This document shows, in pieces, positions 1 to 12,461 of a DNA stretch of 64,000 nucleotides (within the stretch, counting starts at the first letter, position 1; every line of letters begins with the position of its first letter). The stretch is from Verrucomicrobiaceae bacterium. Lineage in GTDB: Bacteria > Verrucomicrobiota > Verrucomicrobiia > Verrucomicrobiales > Verrucomicrobiaceae. Position numbers and translations under genes: made by a program. The notes beneath the pieces were generated by a model. It did no database searches, was not told the DNA's origin, and worked only from the letters and a program-made list of their open reading frames with translations. The DNA is taken from contig JAIYDW010000245.1 in NCBI GenBank assembly GCA_027487315.1, forward strand, positions 1-64,000, in the 5' to 3' direction.

Positions 1-1631
1 GTCGCCCCTGGACCACTCGCCGCCGCCCTCAAGGTCGGCATCGAATCAAAGAAAAACTGCAACGCCTCCCGCCCCCGCTCCATATCCCCAAAATGCCACT
101 GCGCCAACCCGTGCATCAAATACCCCATCACCTCCTCCGAATCCCGACGATACCTCAGCTCCGTCACCTTCAACTTGCTCCCCCAGTTTTCCAGCAGCCG
201 CCCCCCCACCAACTTGAAAAACCCGTCCAAATCTCCCGCACCACTCTCCGACTCCGCCGCCTCCTCCTCCAATTGCTTCAACACCTTCCGCACCGCCGCC
301 TCATCCCCCAGCTCCATCTCGCAAATCGTCAAATGCACCCGCGCCCAGCTCAGCGTCGGCTGCCGCAACCCCTCCGCCAGCAACCCCTCAAAAATCACCC
401 GTCCCGCCTCCGCCTCTCCCTGAATCACTTTATCCCTCCCCTGCCGAAATCGCTCCCCCACCGTCGACTGCCCAACCGCCAAGGTCACACCCGAACCCAC
501 ACCCACACCCGTCCCCACCACCGGCGCCACCTTGATCGATTTCACCGCCCGTTCCCCCGTACTCCGCGCCAGCCACCCCACCACAAACGCCATCACCACC
601 GCCGCCGCCGCCACCAGCACAAACCGCTGCCGTCGGCTCCCCATCAGCCGCGTCACCCCCCCGGACAACCGCTCCGCCATCCGCAGTTCCTCAATCACCG
701 CCTCGTAACTCGCCTGCCGCTTCTCCGGCGAGATCGCCAGCATCCGATTCACCACCGCCACCGTCCTCGGCCGGAACGCCATCCCCGTGTCCTCCAACTC
801 CACCTTCTCCGACTTGATCCTCCGCAACTCCGACAGCGACGCCGTGTTCGCCTTATGCGGCGGCTTCCCCGTCAACGCATGATACAGCGACGCCCCCAAA
901 CTGAAGATATCACTGCGCACATCCTCTGAATTCTCGATCACCTTCTCCGGTGACACATAATACGGCGTCGCCCAGATCTCCCCGTCCTCGTCATCCTTGG
1001 AACCCGCAAAAACCGCCAATCCAAAGTCCACCACCTTCGACGTCCCCGAATCCGTGAACAAAATATTCGCTGGCTTCACATCCCGGTGCAGCAGCCCCTC
1101 CTTATGCGCCGCCTTCAGCCCCTCCGCCACCTCCAGCCCGATCCTTAGCACCTCCTCCTCTGGCAACCGCCCCTGATTCTTGATCCGCTGCTCCAAACTC
1201 CCCCCACTCACCAACTCCATCGCAATGTAAAAATACCCGTGATCCTCCCCGGTTGAATACAGCTTGATCACATTCAAGTGACTGATCTTAGCCGTCAGCA
1301 ACGCCTCCCGCTTGAAACTCTCCACCCGCACCGCATCACGGCTGAATTGCCGATTCAAAATCTTCAATGCCACACGCCGCCCCAGCGTCTCATCCTCCGC
1401 CTCAAACACCCGGCTCATCCCCCCCTCGCCAATCTGTTTGATGATCTTGAAATGATCAAAATTCCGCCGCACCCGCACCAACTGCCCACAGTGCGGACAC
1501 GCCACCTTGCTAAAAGGCTCCAGCGCCGACACATCAATCGGGTTCTGGCAAACCGGACAGACACTCACAAACGGCGATGGCACACTCTCTGGCACCCGAC
1601 AGGCATGCCATAAAATCCCCCCCACCTCCAC
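1..1631 (-). CDS. Ser/Thr protein kinase with N-terminal zinc ribbon (C-terminus outside window)
   Basis: Reading the complement gives an open frame with no stop to the left edge, so the C-terminus is missing. It begins with two zinc knuckles (CPVCQ, CPHCGQ), then a Hanks-type kinase domain: Gly-rich loop IGEGGMSRVF, ATP-binding lysine in VALKIL, catalytic loop HRDVKPANIL, and DFG in VVDFGLAVF. A hydrophobic stretch near bases 600-650 is a single transmembrane segment, followed by a periplasmic region rich in helical, TPR-like sequence. It probably senses an outside signal and phosphorylates cytoplasmic targets. No ATG fits; GTG at 1631, 1625 or 1595 are candidate starts, so the N-terminus is uncertain. 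The kinase assignment is secure; the ligand and targets cannot be read from sequence. Confidence 0.88.
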   Translation of the reverse strand, partial: MEVGGILWHACRVPESVPSPFVSVCPVCQNPIDVSALEPFSKVACPHCGQLVRVRRNFDHFKIIKQIGEGGMSRVFEAEDETLGRRVALKILNRQFSRDAVRVESFKREALLTAKISHLNVIKLYSTGEDHGYFYIAMELVSGGSLEQRIKNQGRLPEEEVLRIGLEVAEGLKAAHKEGLLHRDVKPANILFTDSGTSKVVDFGLAVFAGSKDDEDGEIWATPYYVSPEKVIENSEDVRSDIFSLGASLYHALTGKPPHKANTASLSELRRIKSEKVELEDTGMAFRPRTVAVVNRMLAISPEKRQASYEAVIEELRMAERLSGGVTRLMGSRRQRFVLVAAAAVVMAFVVGWLARSTGERAVKSIKVAPVVGTGVGVGSGVTLAVGQSTVGERFRQGRDKVIQGEAEAGRVIFEGLLAEGLRQPTLSWARVHLTICEMELGDEAAVRKVLKQLEEEAAESESGAGDLDGFFKLVGGRLLENWGSKLKVTELRYRRDSEEVMGYLMHGLAQWHFGDMERGREALQFFFDSMPTLRAAASGPGA

Positions 1632-1682
1632 CCCAATCTTTCACCCCGTGACAAACGCAAAAAACAACGTCATCTCAACGTT

Positions 1683-3002
1683 CTACACCTCATTGGCCTT
1701 CAATACCCGCAGCATGTTCCCACCGATCACCTGCCGAATCGCTTCATCCCCATGTCCGCGCATGATCATCCCTAGCGTGAAAAGCGGCCAATTGCTCCAG
1801 GCCAGACTCTGCTCCGCCTCCAGCGTCGTCACATAGTCGTCCTTCGGCCACAAATGTTCCCATCGCTCGGCACTCCCACTGGGCGCCTTCAATAGCTTCG
1901 CCCGCTCCTCCTTGTCGAAACGCGAGGTGTACGCCACATCGCACCCGATCGCCGCATGCTCCGCACCAAACCTCCGAATCAAGTAATCCAGGTGATCCAT
2001 CAACGCCAAAACATCCCCCTTACCGCCCAAAAAGCGCGGAATGCAGCACATCCCCACAAGCCCGCCCGTGTCGCAGATCGCCTTGATCGTCTCGTCCGGC
2101 TTGCCCCGAAAATGCTCATACAAAGACGCGCATGTCGTGTGACTCGCCACCATCGGCTTCGTCGAGGCCTTCGCCGCATCAAGCGCCGTCTTCCACCCGC
2201 TGTGAGCCACATCCACAATCACCCCGATCCGGTTCATCTCCGCCACCGTCGCATGCCCGAAATCACTCAGCCCACCATCATGCGGTTCACCCGCGCCATC
2301 ACCGATCGGATTCCGCCGATTGTACGTCAAATGCATCATGCGCGTCCCCAACTCATGAAAAAGCCGCACCCAACGCAGTTCATCCCGCACACTCTCCCAG
2401 TCCATCATCAGCGGCACCCCGTTCGTCGTGAAGCATAGCCCGACTTGACCCGCCTTCTTCAACGCCACCACCTCCTCCGCAGTCACCACCTTCGACAGTT
2501 CAGGCCGCATCAAATCCGTCGCCTTCGTGAAGTGCGCCAACCGCTTGATCAACCGCATCGGATCACTCCCCTCCTCGCCTGTGTTTTGAAAAACACACGT
2601 CACTCCTGCCGCGTGAAACGCCTCCAAAAACTCCTTCCTCTCCCGCTCGTTTGTCGCATTTCGACTCATCGTCATCGACTCGCGCAAATCACTCAACTCA
2701 GCCGCCGACGCCCCTCCCGCAATCGCCTCGTTCATCGTCTCCGCATCAATCGCACATCGCGGCGCAAAACCGTAGCTCTCAAACACCACCGACCCAAAAT
2801 GCAGCTCCCACGCATGCTCAATCTGCGCCTGCGTCGGCTTCAACAAGCTCAACGCAATCTCCCGTGGCTTGTCGATGGCCGGATTGCCCGTCACCCACAG
2901 CTTCTTCGCATCTTGCGAACGCACCTGAATCTGCAACCCGCTCCCCAGCGCGGCGAGCGGCAGCGTCTTGAACATCTGGCGGCGGGAAAACAGGGAACTC
3001 AT
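1683..3002 (-). CDS. M19 (renal dipeptidase-like) family protein, exported
   Basis: About 439 aa. The N-terminus SRRQMFKTLPLAALG looks like a Tat or Sec signal with a paired arginine. Membrane-dipeptidase (M19) hallmarks are present: VDVAHSGW and ASHTTC carry the two bridging/second-site histidines, and AIGCDVAY matches the late conserved Asp region. The usual N-terminal HxD metal motif is not found; the aligned place reads LHFGSVVFES. It may be a variant dipeptidase or an amidohydrolase with altered metal binding. I chose the ATG at 3002; an in-frame start at 3041 would overlap the end of the upstream lipocalin gene by 4 nt, so the two genes are probably co-transcribed. Family call fairly sure, activity unsure. 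Confidence 0.75.
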   Translation of the reverse strand: MSSLFSRRQMFKTLPLAALGSGLQIQVRSQDAKKLWVTGNPAIDKPREIALSLLKPTQAQIEHAWELHFGSVVFESYGFAPRCAIDAETMNEAIAGGASAAELSDLRESMTMSRNATNERERKEFLEAFHAAGVTCVFQNTGEEGSDPMRLIKRLAHFTKATDLMRPELSKVVTAEEVVALKKAGQVGLCFTTNGVPLMMDWESVRDELRWVRLFHELGTRMMHLTYNRRNPIGDGAGEPHDGGLSDFGHATVAEMNRIGVIVDVAHSGWKTALDAAKASTKPMVASHTTCASLYEHFRGKPDETIKAICDTGGLVGMCCIPRFLGGKGDVLALMDHLDYLIRRFGAEHAAIGCDVAYTSRFDKEERAKLLKAPSGSAERWEHLWPKDDYVTTLEAEQSLAWSNWPLFTLGMIMRGHGDEAIRQVIGGNMLRVLKANEV

Positions 3003-3037
3003 GGCAGCAAACAAACGTCCCCCCACCCTGCCACTTC

Positions 3038-3586
3038 TCACCGCGTCGGACGAATCAACTTCTCGGTCTCAAACCCCAGCGCCTTCGCCCTCGCCACCAA
3101 ATCCGCTTCCACACCCGCCGGCACCGTCGCCGTCCGCGCCAAAATCCACAAAAACTTCCGATCCGGCGTCCCCACCAGCGCCTGCTCATACCCCGGCGAC
3201 ACATACAAAATCCAGTAGTTCCCCTCCTTCGACACCGGAATCAACGGCCCAAACCACGTATCAAACCGCACCGCCAACCTCGTGTTTTCCCCCGGATTCA
3301 GCACCGTCGCCGTCCCCCGAATCTCCGCCGTCGTCCCGTCCGGCCGCGTCGCCACATTGTGCACCCCCACCTTCCCATCCGCCCGCGCCTCATAAGTCGC
3401 CGTCGCCGCATCCCCAGCCCGCTGAAACGCCATCGGCAACCGCGCAATCTCATGCCACTTGCCCGCATACCGCCCCAGATCCACCCGCCCCGCCGTCGCC
3501 AGCGAAGAACCCTTCGACCCCGAAGAGCACGCTACCCCAATCACCAAAAGCCCACCCACCAAAACAAATCGCAAAAAGTCCGTCAT
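3038..3586 (-). CDS. blc: lipocalin family lipoprotein (Blc-like)
   Basis: 182 aa with an N-terminal hydrophobic helix ending in VIGVAC, a plausible lipobox, so it is probably a lipid-anchored envelope protein. The lipocalin signature GKWHEIARLP (GxW) follows directly, and the C-terminal strand DRKFLWILAR matches the bacterial Blc/apolipoprotein D group. Members bind lysophospholipids or other hydrophobic ligands in a beta-barrel and help with envelope lipid turnover. The length is typical for Blc. It lies immediately upstream of the M19 gene on the same strand with almost no gap. The ligand is not predictable. The symbol is by family resemblance. Confidence 0.85.
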   Translation of the reverse strand: MTDFLRFVLVGGLLVIGVACSSGSKGSSLATAGRVDLGRYAGKWHEIARLPMAFQRAGDAATATYEARADGKVGVHNVATRPDGTTAEIRGTATVLNPGENTRLAVRFDTWFGPLIPVSKEGNYWILYVSPGYEQALVGTPDRKFLWILARTATVPAGVEADLVARAKALGFETEKLIRPTR

Positions 3587-3792
3587 CCCCTAACCCACAC
3601 CCACCCAGCCCCCAGTCAACCCCCAACCCACCCCATTTTCACCCCAATCCCCGCATAGTAGCCATCATCGCTCCGCGTGATGAGCCCCACCCCCTAGCGA
3701 CTAACGGCAGCGAAAACACCATCTGGATCGGCATCAAATGGTCTGCACTGGACAACTTGATTGAATCCTCCTTACTTTAGGTTCGACAAAGC

Positions 3793-3900
3793 ATGGAACC
3801 ACTTTTCATTTCACCGCCAAACGACGAAGCACTCGTTTTCTTTGAGTGGCTCTCTGCGACCCGCGCTCCATTGTCGAACGTCGTTCCGGAATCACTTTAA
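3793..3900 (+). CDS. small ORF, 35 aa, function unknown
   Basis: An ATG-to-TAA frame of 35 codons starting MEPLFISPPNDEALVFFEW lies 6 nt upstream of the DUF4304-like gene on the same strand, in the same AT-richer patch. The composition is protein-like rather than the arginine/proline-rich shadow seen in off-frames nearby. It could be a small partner protein, a leader peptide, or the decayed start of a larger gene. No family recognised. Confidence 0.35.
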   Translation: MEPLFISPPNDEALVFFEWLSATRAPLSNVVPESL

Positions 3901-3906
3901 TCGGAA

Positions 3907-4350
3907 ATGAAAACGGCTGAAGTATCTTCCATTGTTTTTCGAAAGTTGAAGCCCTTGGGAGCAACCCGAAAAGGGCGATCAACGTTTGTCCTGGAAACCC
4001 CAGATTTGCTTAAATCGATCGATATTCAAAAATCAGATTTCAGTCAACTTTGCTACCTCAACTACGGTTTCACATTGAAGCGGGTACCCACTGGTGGACT
4101 CAAAAGTCATCTGATGAAACGGGCGACGTCTAAAGATCCGCTCATAAAGGAGCAAATAGATCGTTGGCTTGACCTCGATTCAGATTTTCCCGATCACGAA
4201 AGGTTGCAGGGAATTGAATGGATCATCGATGAAATCGTGCTGCCTGAGATCCAGACGATCAACACAGAGAGTGATCTGAAAAACTTCATCCTAACATTAG
4301 ACACAATGAATCTTGTTCCAATTCGCCTCCGCGAACACTATGGACTTTAG
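3907..4350 (+). CDS. DUF4304-like protein
   Basis: 147 aa. The start (RKLKPLGATRKGRSTFV, then an IDIQKSDFSQ segment and YLNYGF) has the layout of the DUF4304 family: a 'lkplGf.kkgrtf' opening, an 'inlQkS' strand and a later 'lN.G' strand. The family is of unknown function and is often found among scattered, laterally moved genes, including toxin/immunity neighbourhoods. The base composition is clearly more AT-rich than the flanking lipocalin and typA genes, which supports import. A second small gene follows within 10 nt. Function unknown; family call moderately sure. Confidence 0.65.
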   Translation: MKTAEVSSIVFRKLKPLGATRKGRSTFVLETPDLLKSIDIQKSDFSQLCYLNYGFTLKRVPTGGLKSHLMKRATSKDPLIKEQIDRWLDLDSDFPDHERLQGIEWIIDEIVLPEIQTINTESDLKNFILTLDTMNLVPIRLREHYGL

Positions 4351-4357
4351 CCTCTTA

Positions 4358-4927
4358 ATGAAAACGAGAAGTGGGAATGCCTTGCTTCCCAGTTGGATGG
4401 TTTGGCTAATGCTGAATGCTTGCCTTATAAAACCTTGTTCATCACAAAACTCTGATGAACTTAACGACCTCTTCAGGCTAATCCGCGAGGCAAAAACGGT
4501 CCGCATCGAGGGAACCCTCGATTCCTGGATGGAGTTGAACCCAGGGCGCGCACCCATTATCGAAGCTGTAACCGACAAGAAAGACATCATCTTTTCGATA
4601 GCTAACACATTCAGCCAGAATCAGTGGATTAAGTTGAAGGAGAAGAATGATCCGGCTCAGTTTTCGACCGCTTCATCCATCTTCGTTTTGGTGGTCACGA
4701 ATTCAGAAGGAATTGAGACGAGCTTTACTGTGCTTGCTGGTTATTCTATCTGTCATGAGAAGAGCCAATGGGAAATGACTGATGAAAGTAACGGCGACAT
4801 TATTGGAGAGTTGGCAGGCCTAATTCATAGCAATCAGCAAGATTGGAAGATCAAAGACACCAGCTTGGAGGACTACAAAAAGGAACTTCGTCGATTACGA
4901 GATGAAACAAAAAGTGAACCCAAGTAG
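4358..4927 (+). CDS. hypothetical protein with hydrophobic N-terminus
   Basis: About 189 aa from the ATG at 4358, just after the DUF4304 stop. The N-terminus MKTRSGNALLPSWMVWLML followed by NACLIKPCSS looks like a weak signal sequence, perhaps of a lipoprotein (Cys in KPCSS). The rest is soluble and charged, with beta-rich stretches such as SSIFVLVVTN and a lysine/arginine-rich C-terminal helix. No family recognised. The same AT-richer composition and tight spacing suggest one two- or three-gene transcript with the DUF4304 gene. It may serve as its partner or immunity protein, but that is only context. Confidence 0.55.
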   Translation: MKTRSGNALLPSWMVWLMLNACLIKPCSSQNSDELNDLFRLIREAKTVRIEGTLDSWMELNPGRAPIIEAVTDKKDIIFSIANTFSQNQWIKLKEKNDPAQFSTASSIFVLVVTNSEGIETSFTVLAGYSICHEKSQWEMTDESNGDIIGELAGLIHSNQQDWKIKDTSLEDYKKELRRLRDETKSEPK

Positions 4928-5180
4928 ATAACTCAATGGGTTCAACACCGCGAGTAGGACTTCGCGAGAGACTCGTGTCGTTCGCCTCAGTTCATCGTGA
5001 GCTCTTCACAAACCCCGCCGTTTATCTTCAGCCCAGTGCGTCACCACAAAAACGTCACGGAATGCACCTCACAAACGCCGTCTCGGCACGCCGGAACAAT
5101 CACCCAGCAACGACCGACGCAAACACGACGCTCCCAACCTCAGTGCACGGGCTAACCCCCGCCAAAACCCCCACGTCGAA
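4928..5180. other. intergenic region, convergent gene ends
   Basis: About 250 bases between the hypothetical gene (plus strand) and typA (minus strand), which converge here. I see no gene and no strong hairpin with a T-tract; a few short complementary stretches are present. GC rises back to the chromosomal style in the second half, so the right border of the AT-richer patch lies about here. Confidence 0.5.
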
Positions 5181-7025
5181 TCAACTGTTCTCAGCCAAAT
5201 CCTTCATCTTCTTCACCTCACGCATCCGCTGCTGATGATCCAGCGTCCGCTTGCGCAAGCGAATCGACTTCGGCGTCGCCTCGACCAGCTCATCCGGTGC
5301 AATGTATTCGATCGCCCGCTCCAAACTGAAGCGAATCGGTGGCGTGAGTTGAATCCCCTTGTCACCACCCGCCGCACGGAAGTTCGTCAACTGCTTCGAC
5401 CGCGTCGGATTCACCGGCAAATCATCCGTCCGCGGATTCTCACCCACCAACATACCATCATAAACGGGATCACCCGGTGCCACGAAAAGTTTGCCCCGCA
5501 CCTGAATCGTATCCAGCGCATAGCCAGTCGCTTCGCCTGATTCCGTGCTCACCAAAGTCCCCGTCGTGCGCGTGCTCATCGCACCACAATGCGGTGCATA
5601 CTCCTTGAACAAGTGACTGAAAATCCCGTGACCACTCGTCAAGTTCATCAACTCAAACTCAAATCCAATGATCCCCCGGGTCGGAATCGTCGCCACAATC
5701 GTCGTGCTGTGGGAATGCGGCTTGATGTCGTCAATCCGCCCCTTACGAGCCGACAAACGCTTCATGATGCCACCCACATACTCTTCAGGGGATTCCACCC
5801 AAAGCGTCTCAAAGGGCTCCAACACATGCCCCTTCTCGTCCTTCTTCGTGATCGCCACCGGACGCGACACACACACTTCGAATCCCTCCCGCCGCATCTG
5901 CTCCACAATCACCGCAATCTGCATCGATCCACGCGCACTGACCGCAAAGACACCAGCCAAATCCGTGTCCCGAACCTGAATCGCCACGTTCGCCTTCGAT
6001 TCCTTCATCAGTCGGTCCCGAATTTTCCGCGACGTCACATGCTCACCCTCACGCCCACCCAAAGGCCCGTCATTCACCGAGAACTGCATCTCAATCGTCG
6101 GCGGATCAATCGCCACAAACGGCAGCGCCTCAGCCGTCGCCGATCCCCCAATCGTTTGCCCGATGTCCACATCCTCACATCCTGCCACCCCGATGATGTC
6201 ACCAGCAGTGCCCTCAGCAGTCTCGATCACACCCAGACCCGTGTATTGGAAAACCTTCGTTACTTTGAACGGCTTAGCCGCCTCACCCGGCTCCTTGCCC
6301 AACAGGAACATCCGGTCGCCGATCTTCACCGTTCCACGGTTCACCTTGCCCAGCATCACGCGGCCCACAAAATTGTCCCAGTCGATGTTACTCACCAGCA
6401 TCTGGAATTCTCCTTCCAACTCCGCCTTCGGCGCCGGAATGTGGTCCACGATCTTTTGCAGCATGAACGCCATGTCATGATGCTCGCCATCTGGCGAATC
6501 CGAAACCCATCCCGCCCGGGCACTGCCATACAGGAAAGGGGCATTGAACTGATCATCATTCGCTTCCAGTTCCAAGAAAAGCTCCAACACTTGATCGTGC
6601 ACCTTGGCTGGATCCACGTGCGGCCGGTCCATCTTGTTCACGAGAACCACGGGGCACAACCCCTGTGCAAGAGCCTTCTTCAAAACGAAACGCGTCTGCG
6701 CCTGTGGTCCCTCATAAGCGTCCACGACCAGAAGAACACCGTCCACCATCTTCATCACCCGCTCCACCTCACCACCGAAATCAGCATGGCCCGGGGTATC
6801 CACAATGTTGATGATGTGGTCGTTCCACCTCACCGAAGTGTTCTTCGCTTTGATCGTAATCCCCTTCTCCTTCTCCAAATCCATCGAGTCCATCGCACGC
6901 TCATCGATGTGCTGATTCTCACGGAAGTTGCCGCTGGCGCGCAGCAAGGTATCCACCAGCGTTGTCTTACCATGGTCAACGTGGGCGATGATCGCCAGAT
7001 TTCGAATGTTCGAGGGAAGTGTCAT
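5181..7025 (-). CDS. typA: ribosome-associated translational GTPase TypA/BipA
   Basis: About 614 aa, the normal TypA length. G-domain motifs are clear: [15 protein letters not shown] (P-loop), KGITIKAKN (switch I), [15 protein letters not shown] (G3) and VNKMD (G4). Domain II and the EF-G-like domains III and V follow ([33 protein letters not shown]), ending in the C-terminal domain specific to BipA, with a YVGG-type motif and a basic tail. It binds ribosomes and aids 50S assembly and stress adaptation. The start [16 protein letters not shown] at 7025 gives the usual N-terminus; an upstream in-frame extension to 7079 is not conserved-looking. Confidence 0.97.
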
Positions 7026-7206
7026 GTAGTATTTTTGGGAAAAGGGCGGGCATACTACCCGCATTCCAGCCAGACGCAAACGCCGTCTCGTTTCACTTTG
7101 CCCACAATCACTTCCGACACTGCCCTCGATAAGTTTTCAAAAAATACAAAACTCCAGTTGCATCCTTCCTGCCACCAGACATACTCCACGCCCTTGCATT
7201 TCCAAC

Positions 7207-7291
7207 GCGCGAGTGGCGGAATTGGTATACGCGCAGGATTAAGGATCCTGTGCCGAAAGGCTTGGGGGTTCGAGTCCCCCCTCGCGCACCA
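7207..7291 (+). tRNA. tRNA-Leu (anticodon AAG by structure)
   Basis: An 85-nt class II tRNA: acceptor GCGCGAG pairs with CTCGCGC at 7281-7287 and is followed by encoded ACCA. The D-stem is GCG/CGC, the T-arm is GGGGG-TTCGAGT-CCCCC, and the long variable arm is TGCC-GAAA-GGC(T). The anticodon stem CAGGA/TCCTG encloses the loop TTAAGGA, placing AAG at positions 34-36 with G37, as in leucine CUN tRNAs. The anticodon A34 is uncommon for a bacterial leucine tRNA. Confidence 0.93.
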
Positions 7292-7525
7292 CCTTTGAGA
7301 AACAAAGGCTGGCGGAAGCAAGGAAAGCGTTCTAACAAGGACGCTCGCTGCCCAGATGCAGGCACGTCTCTTACCACAATGAGTGAATGCGCTATCACCC
7401 ATCAGAACTGCAAAAACTTCGGTCCCTTAACCAAAAGGGTCGGATTCGTCACCATTATTCGTATTTGACTTAGAATCGGAACGAGATGAAACTTTTTCCT
7501 TATCCATTCCGTATCACCTGACCGC

Positions 7526-9685
7526 ATGAGCCTGACCCCGGCCCCTAGCCCTTCCACCACCCCTGACCGCGACGCCTACATCCTGGCGATCGCTCACCTC
7601 TCCACGCTCACCGATGTGCCTTTCGACCGCGAACGCGCCACCCAAGCCGTCGACAATGCCCTCCGCTCCTCAGGCGACCCCCTGGAACTCCTCACCGCCG
7701 CAGCCGAAGAAGTCTGCCTTCACATCGCCCCAACTCGCACCACCATCGCAGACGCCGTCTGGAAGGCCAATGTGAACATGCCCATCATTGCATGGTCGCC
7801 CACCGAAAATCGTTGGCTCGTCATCCGGAAACACGGCTTCTTCCGCGCCAGAGTCAGCGTCCCCGATCGCCCGGTCGAAATCGCCACGCTCTCTCGAATC
7901 GAAATCGCCAAGCGCCTCGGCTTGGCCAGTCACGACAGCATCCTAGAAATGGGCATCGTCAGCCCAGAACGGCCCGCTGAACCCACCAGCCATTCTGCCC
8001 ACGCACATCATCACGCTCACATTTCACCCGCTCGGCGTTTCCTCGGCCTCATGCGCCCGGAGTTGCCAGATGTCTGGACCATCATCCTATTCAGTCTGGT
8101 CACCGGCCTGCTCTACTTGGCACTCCCCCTCGCCGTCAACGCCTTGGTCAGTAACGTCGCCTTTGGCACTCAAAGCGGACCTTTCCTTCAAGCCCTTCTC
8201 GTTCTCGCCACCGTCCTCTTCATCTGCCTCTCCATCGCCGCCGCCCTCAGAGGTCTGCAATATTACGTCGTCGAAGTCATCCAACGCCGGCTCTTTGTCC
8301 GCATGACTGCCGACCTCTCTTACCGCATCCCCCGAATCAACCTGCGCTCCATTGACGGCGTCCATGCTCCGGAACTCGTCAACCGCTTCCTCGATGTGGT
8401 GACGATGCAAAAAAACACCGCCCTGCTCCTTCTCACAGGTATCAATCTCGTTCTCAGCACCGTGATCGGCATGGTCGTTCTCGGGTTCTATCACCCCTTC
8501 CTCCTCGCCTTCAGCCTCGTGCTGTTGACCTTTCTTTCCTTCATCATTTTTGTCCTCGGACGGGGCGCGGTCGCTTCCAGCATCGCCGAGTCCCTCTGCA
8601 AATACGGAGTGGTGGGTTGGCTGGAGGAAATCGCCCGCTGCCCTCGTCTATTCAAAGGCCCAGGGGGTTACCAACTCGCCACCAACCGCGCCGACGACCT
8701 GGCTCGTTCCTACCTCGAAGCCCGCCGCAGACACTTTAAAGTCCTCATGGGCCAAATCACGGGCCTTCTCGTTCTCGAAGTCATCGCCAGCGCCACCCTC
8801 CTCAGTGTCGGTGGCTGGCTCGTCATCAACCAGCAACTCACCCTCGGCCAATTGGTCGCATCCGAAATCATCGTCTCCGCCATCGTCGCCTCCATCTCAA
8901 AACTCGGCAAACAATTCGAAGCTTGGTACGACACGCTCGCCGCCGTCGATAAACTCGGTCATCTCGTCGATCTCGAAATCGAACGCGAAGACGGCGATTC
9001 CCCTCTCCGGCTCACCAATGGCGCCCGAATCCAAGTCAGCGATGTGGCGTTCGAATACAGCCCCGGGAAACCCATCTTTTCCAACGTCAATTTCTGCCTC
9101 GAACCCGGCGAGTGCGTGGCTCTCTTCGGCTCCCAAGGCAGCGGCTCCAGCACCATGCTCGATCTCCTACATGGCCTGCGAATGCCCACTGAAGGCCATA
9201 TCATCATTGATCAACTCGACCTTCGTGGCTGGTATCTCGAAAGCCTCCGCTCCCAAGTCACCCTCATTCGCTCCTCCGATCTCGTCAACGGAACCATCGC
9301 CGAAAACGTTCGCCTGGGACATCCAGATGTGTCCATTTACGATGTCAATGCCGCCCTAAACACCGTCGGACTCCTCCAAGACGTTCTCGATCTCCCAGAG
9401 GGCATCAATACCACCCTCCTCGCTGGCGGACTCCCCCTCTCCAGCCGCCAACGGATCCGGCTCCTCATCGCCAGAGCCATCGTCTCCCGCCCTCGATTGC
9501 TTCTCCTCGACGAGATCCTCGATGGCCTCGACAAAACTGCCCTCGCCGAACTCTCCAACATCCTGCTCGATCCCTCCCGGAATTGCACCGTCCTCATTTC
9601 CACCCGTGAAGATGCCGTCATTCGCCGCTGCACACGCCTCATCGATCTCGACGCCCCCGAGTGCCACCTTTCTAATCCAGCCTGA
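7526..9685 (+). CDS. type I secretion-type ABC transporter with degenerate ATPase domain
   Basis: 719 aa: a roughly 180-residue soluble N-terminal region ending in a His-rich linker (SHSAHAHHHAH), a six-helix exporter membrane domain (about residues 185-480) and a nucleotide-binding domain (about 505-719). Unusually, the Walker A reads GSQGSGSST at 535-543, with Ser541 in place of the invariant Lys. The signature is LSSRQ (638-642) instead of LSGGQ, and the H-loop reads ISTRED, lacking His. Walker B LLLLDE is intact. It heads a cassette with HlyD and TolC genes downstream, so it probably forms the inner-membrane part of a tripartite exporter whose ATP hydrolysis is weak, asymmetric or absent. 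No substrate gene is next to it. Confidence 0.85.
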   Translation: MSLTPAPSPSTTPDRDAYILAIAHLSTLTDVPFDRERATQAVDNALRSSGDPLELLTAAAEEVCLHIAPTRTTIADAVWKANVNMPIIAWSPTENRWLVIRKHGFFRARVSVPDRPVEIATLSRIEIAKRLGLASHDSILEMGIVSPERPAEPTSHSAHAHHHAHISPARRFLGLMRPELPDVWTIILFSLVTGLLYLALPLAVNALVSNVAFGTQSGPFLQALLVLATVLFICLSIAAALRGLQYYVVEVIQRRLFVRMTADLSYRIPRINLRSIDGVHAPELVNRFLDVVTMQKNTALLLLTGINLVLSTVIGMVVLGFYHPFLLAFSLVLLTFLSFIIFVLGRGAVASSIAESLCKYGVVGWLEEIARCPRLFKGPGGYQLATNRADDLARSYLEARRRHFKVLMGQITGLLVLEVIASATLLSVGGWLVINQQLTLGQLVASEIIVSAIVASISKLGKQFEAWYDTLAAVDKLGHLVDLEIEREDGDSPLRLTNGARIQVSDVAFEYSPGKPIFSNVNFCLEPGECVALFGSQGSGSSTMLDLLHGLRMPTEGHIIIDQLDLRGWYLESLRSQVTLIRSSDLVNGTIAENVRLGHPDVSIYDVNAALNTVGLLQDVLDLPEGINTTLLAGGLPLSSRQRIRLLIARAIVSRPRLLLLDEILDGLDKTALAELSNILLDPSRNCTVLISTREDAVIRRCTRLIDLDAPECHLSNPA

Positions 9686-9697
9686 TATCTTCCCCTC

Positions 9698-11023
9698 ATG
9701 GACGCCGCCGCCTCTCATCATCACCCCGCTCCAGCCGCCCTCCTCGGCTCTCTGCCCGCGCTCGCCCTCTCAGGCTCCGCCCGGGCACCTCGGATTCTGT
9801 CACGTGTCCTCTTTGTCATTTTCCTCCTCATTCTTGCCGGGGTCTTTTTCATGCCATGGCAACAGTTTGTCAGTGGCACCGGTCGCGTCATCGCCTTCAA
9901 TCCCCTCGACCGCCGCGTCAACGTCGAAGCCCCCGTCGCAGGCCGCGTCAAACACCTCCACGTCGTCGAAAACCAACGCGTCAAAAAGGGCGATATCCTC
10001 CTCGAAATTCAGGACAACGATCCCAACCTCCTCGCCAACATGCGCCTCCAGCATGATGCCGCCATCGCTCGCAAAGCCGCCGCTCAACAACGCATCGAAG
10101 ACCTCGGCGCCCAAATCGCTCAAATGGAACTCGCCAAAAGCCAGGCCATCGACTCCGCTCGCCAGCGAGTCCTCTCCGAGCAATACTCACTCAACACCAA
10201 CCAACTCAATTTCGAGCGCGTCGAAAAACTTCTCAAACCCGGCTACGTCTCCCAGCGCGACTTCGAACTCGCCAAACTCGCCATCGACAGTTCCGAAGCC
10301 AATCTCCAATCCGCCAAAGCCATTCTCGAACGCACCGAGAGAGAAATGGACGCCTCCATTTCCAGCATCAAAGGCAGCCGAAGCTCCGCCCAAAGTGAGC
10401 TCGCCACCGCCGACCGCGACATCACCACCATCGACATTCAAATCAATCAGGCCCAGCAGCAAGTCATCGAAGCTCCTCGGGACGGCATCGTCTTCAGCAT
10501 CACCGCCACCGACGGCACCTACCTTCGCCCCGGCTCCGCCATCTGCGTCATCATCCCGGAAACCGAAAGCCGGTTCGTCGAAATGTGGGTCAACGGCATG
10601 GACATGCCCCTCATTACCCAGCGTCACGAAAACCCGGATGGCACCGTCACACCCGGCAGCCCCGTCCGCCTACAATTCGAAGGCTGGCCCGCCATTCAAT
10701 TCGTCGGCTGGCCCAGTGTCGCCGTCGGCACCTTCGGCGGCGAAGTCGTCTTCATTGACCCCACCGACGATGGCTACGGACGCTTCCGCATCGTCGTGTC
10801 CGCCAAACCCGATGTCACCATCCGCGATGGCAAAACCCATGTCGAAGACTGGCCCGGCAACCGCTTCCTCCGCCAGGGCGTCCGGTCCAAAGGCTGGGTT
10901 CTCCTCCAGCAGGTTCCTCTCTGGCTCGAAATCTGGCGTCAGTTGAATGGCTTCCCTCCAGTTGTTGCCAACGCAGAACCGGGTAAAGAAAAGGGCGCCA
11001 CCATGCCTGCCTCCACCAAATAA
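9698..11023 (+). CDS. HlyD-family membrane fusion protein
   Basis: 441 aa. A proline/alanine-rich cytoplasmic tail and a single transmembrane helix (about 33-52) are followed by a biotinyl-lipoyl half-motif (VEAPVAGRVKHLHVVENQ), a long coiled-coil hairpin (about 105-240; many Ala/Gln/Glu heptads), the second lipoyl half (VIEAPRDGIVFSI) and a beta-barrel region. This is the periplasmic adaptor of type I or RND-like export systems, linking the inner-membrane ABC protein to a TolC channel. It starts 12 nt after the ABC gene and ends 7 nt before the TolC gene, so the three form one operon. Good family confidence; cargo unknown. Confidence 0.92.
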   Translation: MDAAASHHHPAPAALLGSLPALALSGSARAPRILSRVLFVIFLLILAGVFFMPWQQFVSGTGRVIAFNPLDRRVNVEAPVAGRVKHLHVVENQRVKKGDILLEIQDNDPNLLANMRLQHDAAIARKAAAQQRIEDLGAQIAQMELAKSQAIDSARQRVLSEQYSLNTNQLNFERVEKLLKPGYVSQRDFELAKLAIDSSEANLQSAKAILERTEREMDASISSIKGSRSSAQSELATADRDITTIDIQINQAQQQVIEAPRDGIVFSITATDGTYLRPGSAICVIIPETESRFVEMWVNGMDMPLITQRHENPDGTVTPGSPVRLQFEGWPAIQFVGWPSVAVGTFGGEVVFIDPTDDGYGRFRIVVSAKPDVTIRDGKTHVEDWPGNRFLRQGVRSKGWVLLQQVPLWLEIWRQLNGFPPVVANAEPGKEKGATMPASTK

Positions 11024-11030
11024 CAGCCGG

Positions 11031-12461
11031 ATGATCCCCCGACTCTCTCTCGCCCTCCTTTTCGTCCTCGCTACCCGTCCCGCCATCCTCCCGGCGGCGG
11101 ACGCCTCACCCTTGCTGTTAGACTCCGTCGTCGCCTCCGTCAAAGGCCGCTACCCCCCTTGGCTCGCCGCCCTCATCGAGCAGGACATCATGAACGGCCG
11201 CGCACGCCAGGCCCTCGGTTCCTTCGACACCAGCCTCTCCGCGAGCGGCATCTTCCACCCCTCAGGTTATTACAACGGCACCTCCGGCTATGTCGCCGTC
11301 GAACAACCGCTTTCCTTCTGGGGTGGCGGTGTCTATGGCGGTTACCGCTTCAGCGGCGGTTTCCTCGCCGATTACGACAAAAATCGCACCGAAGAAAATG
11401 GCCAGGCCATGATCGGGTTCCGCCTCCCTCTCCTTCGTGATGGCACCCTCGACAAACGCCGCGCCGACCTCTACAAAGCCCGTATCGACCAGGAACTCGC
11501 CGACCCCTTTATCCTCCGTCAACAACTCGACTTCATCCGCACCGCCACCATCTCCTACTACAACTGGGTCGCCGCTGGCTACCGCGTGCAACTCGCCAAC
11601 CAACTCCTCGAAATCGCCCGCAATCGCCAAACCGCCATCACCGAAATGGTCGCTCGTGGCGCCCAGGCTCCCATCGTCAAAATTGACAACGAACGCCTCG
11701 TCATCAGCCGCGAACTCGCCCTCGTCTCCGCCCGTCGCCTCCTCGAGGCCCACGGCATCGAACTCTCCCTTTTCTATCGCGACGCCTCAGACCAACCCAT
11801 TCGACCCGCCAACAACCAAATCCCCTCCGCCTTTCCTCCCGCCAACGGACCCGGCCCTGAGGAATTGCCCAACGACATCGCCAAAGCCCTCATGTTCCGC
11901 CCCGAAATCCGCCGCGTCGAACTCAACATCGAAAAGAACGCCATCGACCAACGCCTCGCCAGAAACAACCTCCTCCCCAACCTCGACCTCAGCCTCGAAG
12001 CCAATCAAGCCATCGGCACCCAATCCCAAAAAGACATCGACCGCACCGAACTCGAAGCCCGCATCGATCTCAAAGTCCCCATCCAACGCCGCGAAGCCAA
12101 AGGTCGCCTCGCCGTCACCGAAGGCCAGTTCACTCAACTCATGCGGGATCGCCAATTCACCCGCGACCAAATCACCGCCACCGTCCAGGACGCCCATTCC
12201 GCCCTCCAGGCCGCGCGCGACCAAATCAAACAGACCGACCGCAACGTCGAACTCGCCGAGCAACTCGAAAAAGCCGAAAGCGCACGCTTCGACCAAGGCG
12301 CCGCCGACCTCCTCGCTCTCCAAATCCGAGAACAAGCCACCTTCGACGCCCGCCTCATCCAACTCCAAGCCAAAGCCGACTTCTTCCGCGCCCTCGCCAA
12401 CTACCGCGCCTCCATCGCCGCAGACGCCCCCACCAGCCTGGCTAAGCCCCTCCCTCAATGA
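11031..12461 (+). CDS. TolC-family outer membrane efflux protein
   Basis: 476 aa from the ATG at 11031, chosen because it gives a clean signal peptide (MIPRLSLALLFVLATRPAI, then LPAADA). The body is two repeats of long alpha-helices with TolC/OEP character, e.g. ELADPFILRQQLDFIRTATI and the C-terminal TVQDAHSALQAARDQIKQTD. It would form the trimeric outer-membrane channel for the upstream HlyD/ABC pair. Its stop overlaps the pepD start in an ATGA, so pepD is translationally coupled to it. Length and architecture are normal. Confidence 0.9.
   Translation: MIPRLSLALLFVLATRPAILPAADASPLLLDSVVASVKGRYPPWLAALIEQDIMNGRARQALGSFDTSLSASGIFHPSGYYNGTSGYVAVEQPLSFWGGGVYGGYRFSGGFLADYDKNRTEENGQAMIGFRLPLLRDGTLDKRRADLYKARIDQELADPFILRQQLDFIRTATISYYNWVAAGYRVQLANQLLEIARNRQTAITEMVARGAQAPIVKIDNERLVISRELALVSARRLLEAHGIELSLFYRDASDQPIRPANNQIPSAFPPANGPGPEELPNDIAKALMFRPEIRRVELNIEKNAIDQRLARNNLLPNLDLSLEANQAIGTQSQKDIDRTELEARIDLKVPIQRREAKGRLAVTEGQFTQLMRDRQFTRDQITATVQDAHSALQAARDQIKQTDRNVELAEQLEKAESARFDQGAADLLALQIREQATFDARLIQLQAKADFFRALANYRASIAADAPTSLAKPLPQ

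Follow-up and report, generated by a model that had tools for sequence, protein, structure and literature searches.

The ABC gene at 7526..9685 of the window, by which we mean the whole 64,000-nucleotide stretch of DNA that was analysed, encodes an exporter whose nucleotide-binding domain (NBD) has lost most of its catalytic residues, and we put a probability of about 0.9 on the reading that it belongs to a conserved family of exporters that are dead as ATPases. ATP hydrolysis is the defining activity of ABC exporters, in which the NBD is as a rule the best-conserved domain. The relatives described below make up a little-noticed family of export pumps that keep the ABC shape and appear to have repeatedly lost the parts that burn ATP, and the question they raise is what powers them. 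The features referred to in the text are the following, with residue numbers (aa) from the ABC protein.

7207-7291: tRNA-Leu (aag), just upstream of the operon; no other tRNA gene lies in the 64 kb window
7526..9685, + strand: predicted pseudo-ATPase ABC exporter, 719 aa (open reading frame, PF00005 and PF00664)
about aa 15-147: C39-like domain of the ABC protein
aa 168-481: six-helix membrane domain of the ABC protein
8492..8494, + strand: His323, between TM3 and TM4 and at the start of TM4 in the model (alignment and AlphaFold2 model)
8864..8866, + strand: Glu447, start of TM6 (alignment)
about aa 500-707: degenerate NBD of the ABC protein
9128..9154, + strand: degenerate Walker A, GSQGSGSST, aa 535-543, with Ser541 for Lys
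9269..9274, + strand: Q-loop position, Arg582-Ser583, where canonical exporters have x-Gln (alignment with canonical exporters)
9437..9451, + strand: degenerate signature motif, LSSRQ, aa 638-642, for LSGGQ
9509..9514, + strand: Walker B Asp662-Glu663, retained
9602..9610, + strand: H-loop position, Thr693-Arg694-Glu695, where canonical exporters have Ala-His-Arg
9698..11023, + strand: HlyD/EmrA-type periplasmic adaptor, 441 aa, starting 12 bases after the ABC gene
about 11031..12461, + strand: TolC-family outer-membrane channel (PF02321, two stretches)

The exporter reading frame is intact, and its coordinates and length were confirmed. Both Pfam domains score above their gathering cut-offs (ABC_tran 72.7 bits, ABC_membrane 35.3 bits) and the fold is that of an exporter, which places the protein in the ABC exporter superfamily. 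The AlphaFold2 model (mean pLDDT 78, pTM 0.72) has an alpha/beta N-terminal domain at 15-147, six long helices at 168-481, two short coupling-type helices at 273-276 and 373-376, and an NBD with pLDDT mostly about 85-95. Foldseek matches HlyB and PCAT1 from end to end, with the N-terminal domain covered, at E about 1e-24, and hence the window protein is type I secretion-like in build. Its best NCBIfam model is TIGR03375 LssB, far below the cut-off at 192.4 bits versus 693.1, with TIGR01846 at 158 versus 725.6, and neither the window protein nor an Acidobacteriota relative comes near the cut-off of any NCBIfam model. What is shared with exporters of the LssB/LapB and HlyB type (TIGR03375, TIGR01846; HlyB/D structures 7sgr and 8dck) is the C39-like domain, the six helices, the NBD, the adaptor, and TolC. 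The window protein differs from them in lacking the Walker A Lys, the Q-loop Gln, LSGGQ, and the H-loop His, and its operon differs in having an EmrA-type adaptor and no conserved cargo gene nearby. Domain order and fold are also those of the PCAT1-type peptidase-containing exporters, but the Pfam search gave no match to a peptidase model in the window protein, and the ATPase motifs are lost.

A first-pass annotation had proposed that Ser541 takes the place of the invariant Walker A Lys, that LSSRQ stands in for LSGGQ, and that the switch, or H-loop, His is absent. All three hold: the Walker A reads GSQGSGSST, LSSRQ is found at 638-642, and the His position is occupied by Arg694 both in an alignment with 27 canonical exporters and in a HMMER alignment to BSEP. 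As a count of the losses, three was one too few, since the Q-loop Gln is also gone, replaced by Ser583 with a conserved Arg582 just before it. What remains is the P-loop glycine skeleton, Thr543, the D-loop Asp669, the A-loop Tyr511, and the Walker B Asp662 with Glu663, the last of these as had been claimed. Taken as a functional ABC ATPase, the domain has thus lost 4 of 5 elements (Walker A Lys, Q-loop Gln, LSGGQ, H-loop His) and kept the Walker B Glu.

The ABC gene is the first of a three-gene operon and is followed by the HlyD and TolC genes, so that both partners named in the first-pass annotation are present directly downstream, and a periplasmic adaptor with a TolC-family channel is what marks a type I secretion (T1SS) operon. 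By NCBIfam, the adaptor scores best as EmrA-type. The TolC reading frame opens at 10947; we infer a start at 11031, where a signal-peptide-like stretch comes first and there is no overlap with HlyD. Upstream of the operon, on the other strand, is a TypA/BipA-like GTPase, and downstream is a peptidase-like reading frame, both named by sequence inspection. No promoter-like site was found, which says little outside organisms with the sigma-70 consensus. Relatives of HlyD and TolC directly adjoin the ABC gene in nearly all loci of sufficient length, across five phyla. Among the variants, L166 and L168 have the TolC gene on the opposite side of the ABC gene, and in L206-L208 gene calling gave no HlyD frame, yet narrower loci of these places did show HlyD. 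The neighbours otherwise vary between genomes, and no conserved cargo or accessory gene is found among them. HlyD systems that do without a normal ABC ATPase are known from SecA_DEAD-associated loci in Planctomycetes and Verrucomicrobia (PMC4452313), but those have no ABC protein, they have SecA-like ATPases, and their gene set differs from that of the window operon.

Close genomes and GTDB contigs supply several dozen relatives at 46-98% identity from Verrucomicrobiota and freshwater Planctomycetota, a few of the records bearing other names in their MAG titles and possibly being mis-binned. Profile searches of genome draws, in which the phylum assigned to a relative is that of the draw's centre genome, found relatives in 23/246 genomes for Planctomycetota (centre included), 5/299 for Pseudomonadota, and 5/149 for Acidobacteriota, and the family is patchy in Verrucomicrobiota as well, at 6/289. 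Plasmid records add relatives from Persicobacter, Aureibacter, Riemerella, and sphingomonads, and altogether the family is found in Verrucomicrobiota, Planctomycetota, Pseudomonadota, Bacteroidota, and Acidobacteriota. With a membrane-domain profile in the Verrucomicrobiota draw, the family scores at E <=1e-129 and the next best sequences, which are canonical exporters, at about 1e-16, and by that gap the family is sharply bounded. Searches with the membrane domain only, over open frames of >=564 aa, returned no member without an NBD. A phage origin was considered upon a match to PHROG 2392 and rejected, as the phage records are weak matches and probably other exporters; none of the viral contigs encodes a relative. 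The sampled records that carry an annotation are called 'ABC transporter ATP-binding protein' or 'ABC transporter transmembrane domain-containing protein', and family members are probably being counted as ATPases. In the open-access literature searched we found no paper on the family, nor an account of systematic ATPase loss in an operon's only ABC subunit; in fold, partners, and descent the family belongs with the type I secretion exporters.

The losses in the window protein recur across the family. In an alignment of 73 family NBDs, the Q-loop Gln, LSGG, and the H-loop His are each kept in 0/73, the Walker A Lys in 23/73 (absent in 50/73), the Walker B Asp in 63/73, and the Glu in 31/73. Scored over six catalytic elements, the family keeps 0-2 (n = 73) and canonical exporters keep 5-6 (n = 27). 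Four Acidobacteriota proteins keep 4/6, with a Walker A of the GASGAGKS type, LSRGQ, LDE, and the His, differing from canonical by the Q-loop Gln and one signature Gly only. At the other end is a planctomycete subgroup (L076, L078, L079, L080, L088) with the NBD even further reduced: its Walker A reads GSRGTEAG, GSRGTESG, or GSRGTETG, the Walker B Glu has become Gly, and the D-loop is one residue shorter. The ABC_tran Pfam score falls from 103.5 bits in Acidobacteriota to 72.7 in the window protein, 37.3 in L078, and 21.9 in L158, and there is no match at all in L156 and L184 from Pseudomonadota, while ABC_membrane holds steady at 31-45 bits. Membrane-domain trees, weakly supported in their deep branches, set the family apart from canonical exporters as a single group, and the presence of the Lys requires three changes on them. 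Because regain of all the motifs is implausible, and because four Acidobacteriota members are still at 4/6 elements, the simplest reading is that a working ATPase decayed inside the family, and did so repeatedly. Repeated decay of the NBD, with the membrane domain and HlyD-TolC held constant, can serve as a natural experiment on the purpose of the NBD.

All domains are under purifying selection. Between closely related members, dN/dS lies mostly at 0.03-0.08 for the membrane domain and mostly at 0.03-0.16 for the NBD; it is about 0.2 in both domains for L148/L150, and L079/L080 are too alike to inform. Membrane-domain identity exceeds NBD identity in 2671/2701 family pairs versus 0/478 canonical pairs, the pairs within each set not being independent. 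The low dN/dS and the reversed conservation together argue that the NBD is still constrained, no longer as an ATPase, and that it is never lost outright argues that it still does something, a point against the proton-driven reading set out below. The pseudo-ATPase interpretation offered at first pass is well supported. From the motifs, ATP hydrolysis by the window protein is very probably too slow to be of use, and with the signature motif also lost there would be no intact ATP site in either a homodimer or a heterodimer; the NBD has very probably been kept as a structural or gating piece.

For the energy source, we examine the membrane domain. Arg287, Gln295, His323, Ser356, Lys359, and His403 are invariant in 77/77 relatives. 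His323 is found in L199 too, and is Ser or Asn in the four near-canonical Acidobacteriota members and Met, Thr, or Gln in canonical exporters. Glu447 is Glu in 74/77 relatives and Trp in 3, is retained in the near-canonical Acidobacteriota, and aligns with Phe in canonical exporters. The three with Trp447 are L141, L149, and L151 from the planctomycete draw, of which L141 and L151 form their own branch. This family-specific conservation points first to Glu447 and His323 as candidates for ion coupling, although His323 tracks the state of the NBD on one branch only, which leaves the link as a single contrast and weakens the case for proton coupling. The AlphaFold2 model is of low confidence exactly around these 2 residues, at 310-323 and 438-455.

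There is precedent for an ion gradient acting on an ABC membrane domain. Without an NBD, MsbA continues to export ethidium by using a pH gradient (PMC4979069), and LmrA has an acidic TM6 residue, Glu314, that serves proton-coupled transport (PMC6155054), so that proton coupling is physically reasonable here. The same papers also report that deleting the Walker A lysine strongly impairs MsbA in cells (PMC4979069) and that ATP hydrolysis is compulsory for LmrA ethidium transport (PMC6155054). MsbA-MD and LmrA are artificial truncations or canonical ATPases, and the window family would be a natural case, bearing on whether ion gradients can drive the membrane domain, which has so far been argued from engineered MsbA and LmrA. 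On the preferred explanation, the window protein would form a three-protein exporter together with HlyD and TolC and be its inner-membrane component, substrate would enter from the cytoplasm or inner membrane and leave through HlyD and TolC, and protonation of Glu447 and His323, where TM6 and TM4 respectively begin, would drive the membrane domain. The step in which proton-motive force drives transport, with these 2 as candidate protonation sites, is weakly suggested by the conserved residues. The full chain, a pseudo-ATPase exporter seated in a HlyD/TolC conduit and driven by proton-motive force, is therefore put forward tentatively, at somewhat under even odds; of the options in the first-pass annotation, a protein driven otherwise is the one it favours. 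More doubtful is the general statement that a natural and widespread ABC-fold family has exchanged ATP for proton-motive force, or for some other membrane gradient, with the NBD as a mere structural clamp. With its gradation from Acidobacteriota to Pseudomonadota, the family allows the power source to be tested.

The alternative that survives best, though we consider it unlikely, is that the protein needs a canonical ABC exporter from another locus in order to work, the two forming either a heterodimer or a larger ring of dead and live dimers on HlyD. Half-degenerate heterodimers are common (PMC7756269), and HlyB/HlyD assembles three HlyB dimers, one of them competent for transport (PMC9751043), which makes mixed assemblies conceivable. 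TM287/288, TmrAB, and TAP likewise have a degenerate protomer kept by selection, but one of their composite sites is canonical, and the composite ATP site in a heterodimer requires the signature motif of the partner (PMC7756269), which is LSSRQ in the window protein, with LSGG in 0/73 of the family. The host genome does have at least five other exporters; of the five best, four are MsbA-like and one is a cyanophycin-associated ABC, and none is a T1SS partner by family model. Nor does a canonical ABC gene (Walker A with LSGGQ) adjoin any inspected operon, in flanks of up to about 9 kb each side; an unlinked partner may still exist. The HlyD-TolC pair is dedicated to the dead subunit. The first-pass suggestion of half a heterodimer is weakened by these findings, and a simple heterodimer is unlikely.

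We regard as improbable a conformational channel or gate rather than a pump, opened by substrate or membrane potential with the NBDs as a passive clamp, the nearest analogue being CFTR. CFTR itself makes use of ATP binding and of one site that is intact, which counts against this reading, and a dedicated HlyD and TolC suggest vectorial export. An NBD that is retained yet motif-dead would fit a channel, and LmrA shows ion conductance in lipid bilayers (PMC6155054).

Also improbable, and ranked after the channel, is a residual or rewired ATPase, in which ATP would sit on the P-loop glycines and Asp662/Glu663, and Arg582, Arg641, or Arg694 would replace the lost charges. The residues retained in the window NBD, from the glycine skeleton and Thr543 to Walker B, the D-loop Asp, and Tyr511, are in keeping with this, and Arg582 is common in the family, but Arg641 and Arg694 are not conserved across it. 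Furthermore, in relatives such as L078 and L080 all four of Lys, LSGGQ, Glu, and His are gone, and Pfam fails to recognise some NBDs from Pseudomonadota, so the new catalytic mechanism that the first-pass annotation had allowed for loses ground.

A local pseudogene, sequencing error, or mis-assembly, which the earlier annotation had doubted and had tied to homologs having the canonical motifs, can be dismissed: the homologs have lost them, identical states recur in 98% identical copies from other assemblies, the Q-loop, LSGG, and H-loop losses are shared by all 73 relatives, dozens of relatives are intact, and dN/dS is low.

Two minor observations concern gene content. In L186, the small plasmid pHAL16 of Sphingobium sp. 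KCTC 72723, the pseudo-ABC operon (1362-8156) comes after a DUF2309 gene, and a carbonic anhydrase gene lies about 4 kb downstream of it, possibly linking the operon to inorganic carbon in this one instance. In the window's own genome, the ABC exporter of L005 (contig C205) exceeds the cut-off of the cyanophycin metabolism-associated NCBIfam model, at 967 versus 880 bits, and hence the host may handle cyanophycin.
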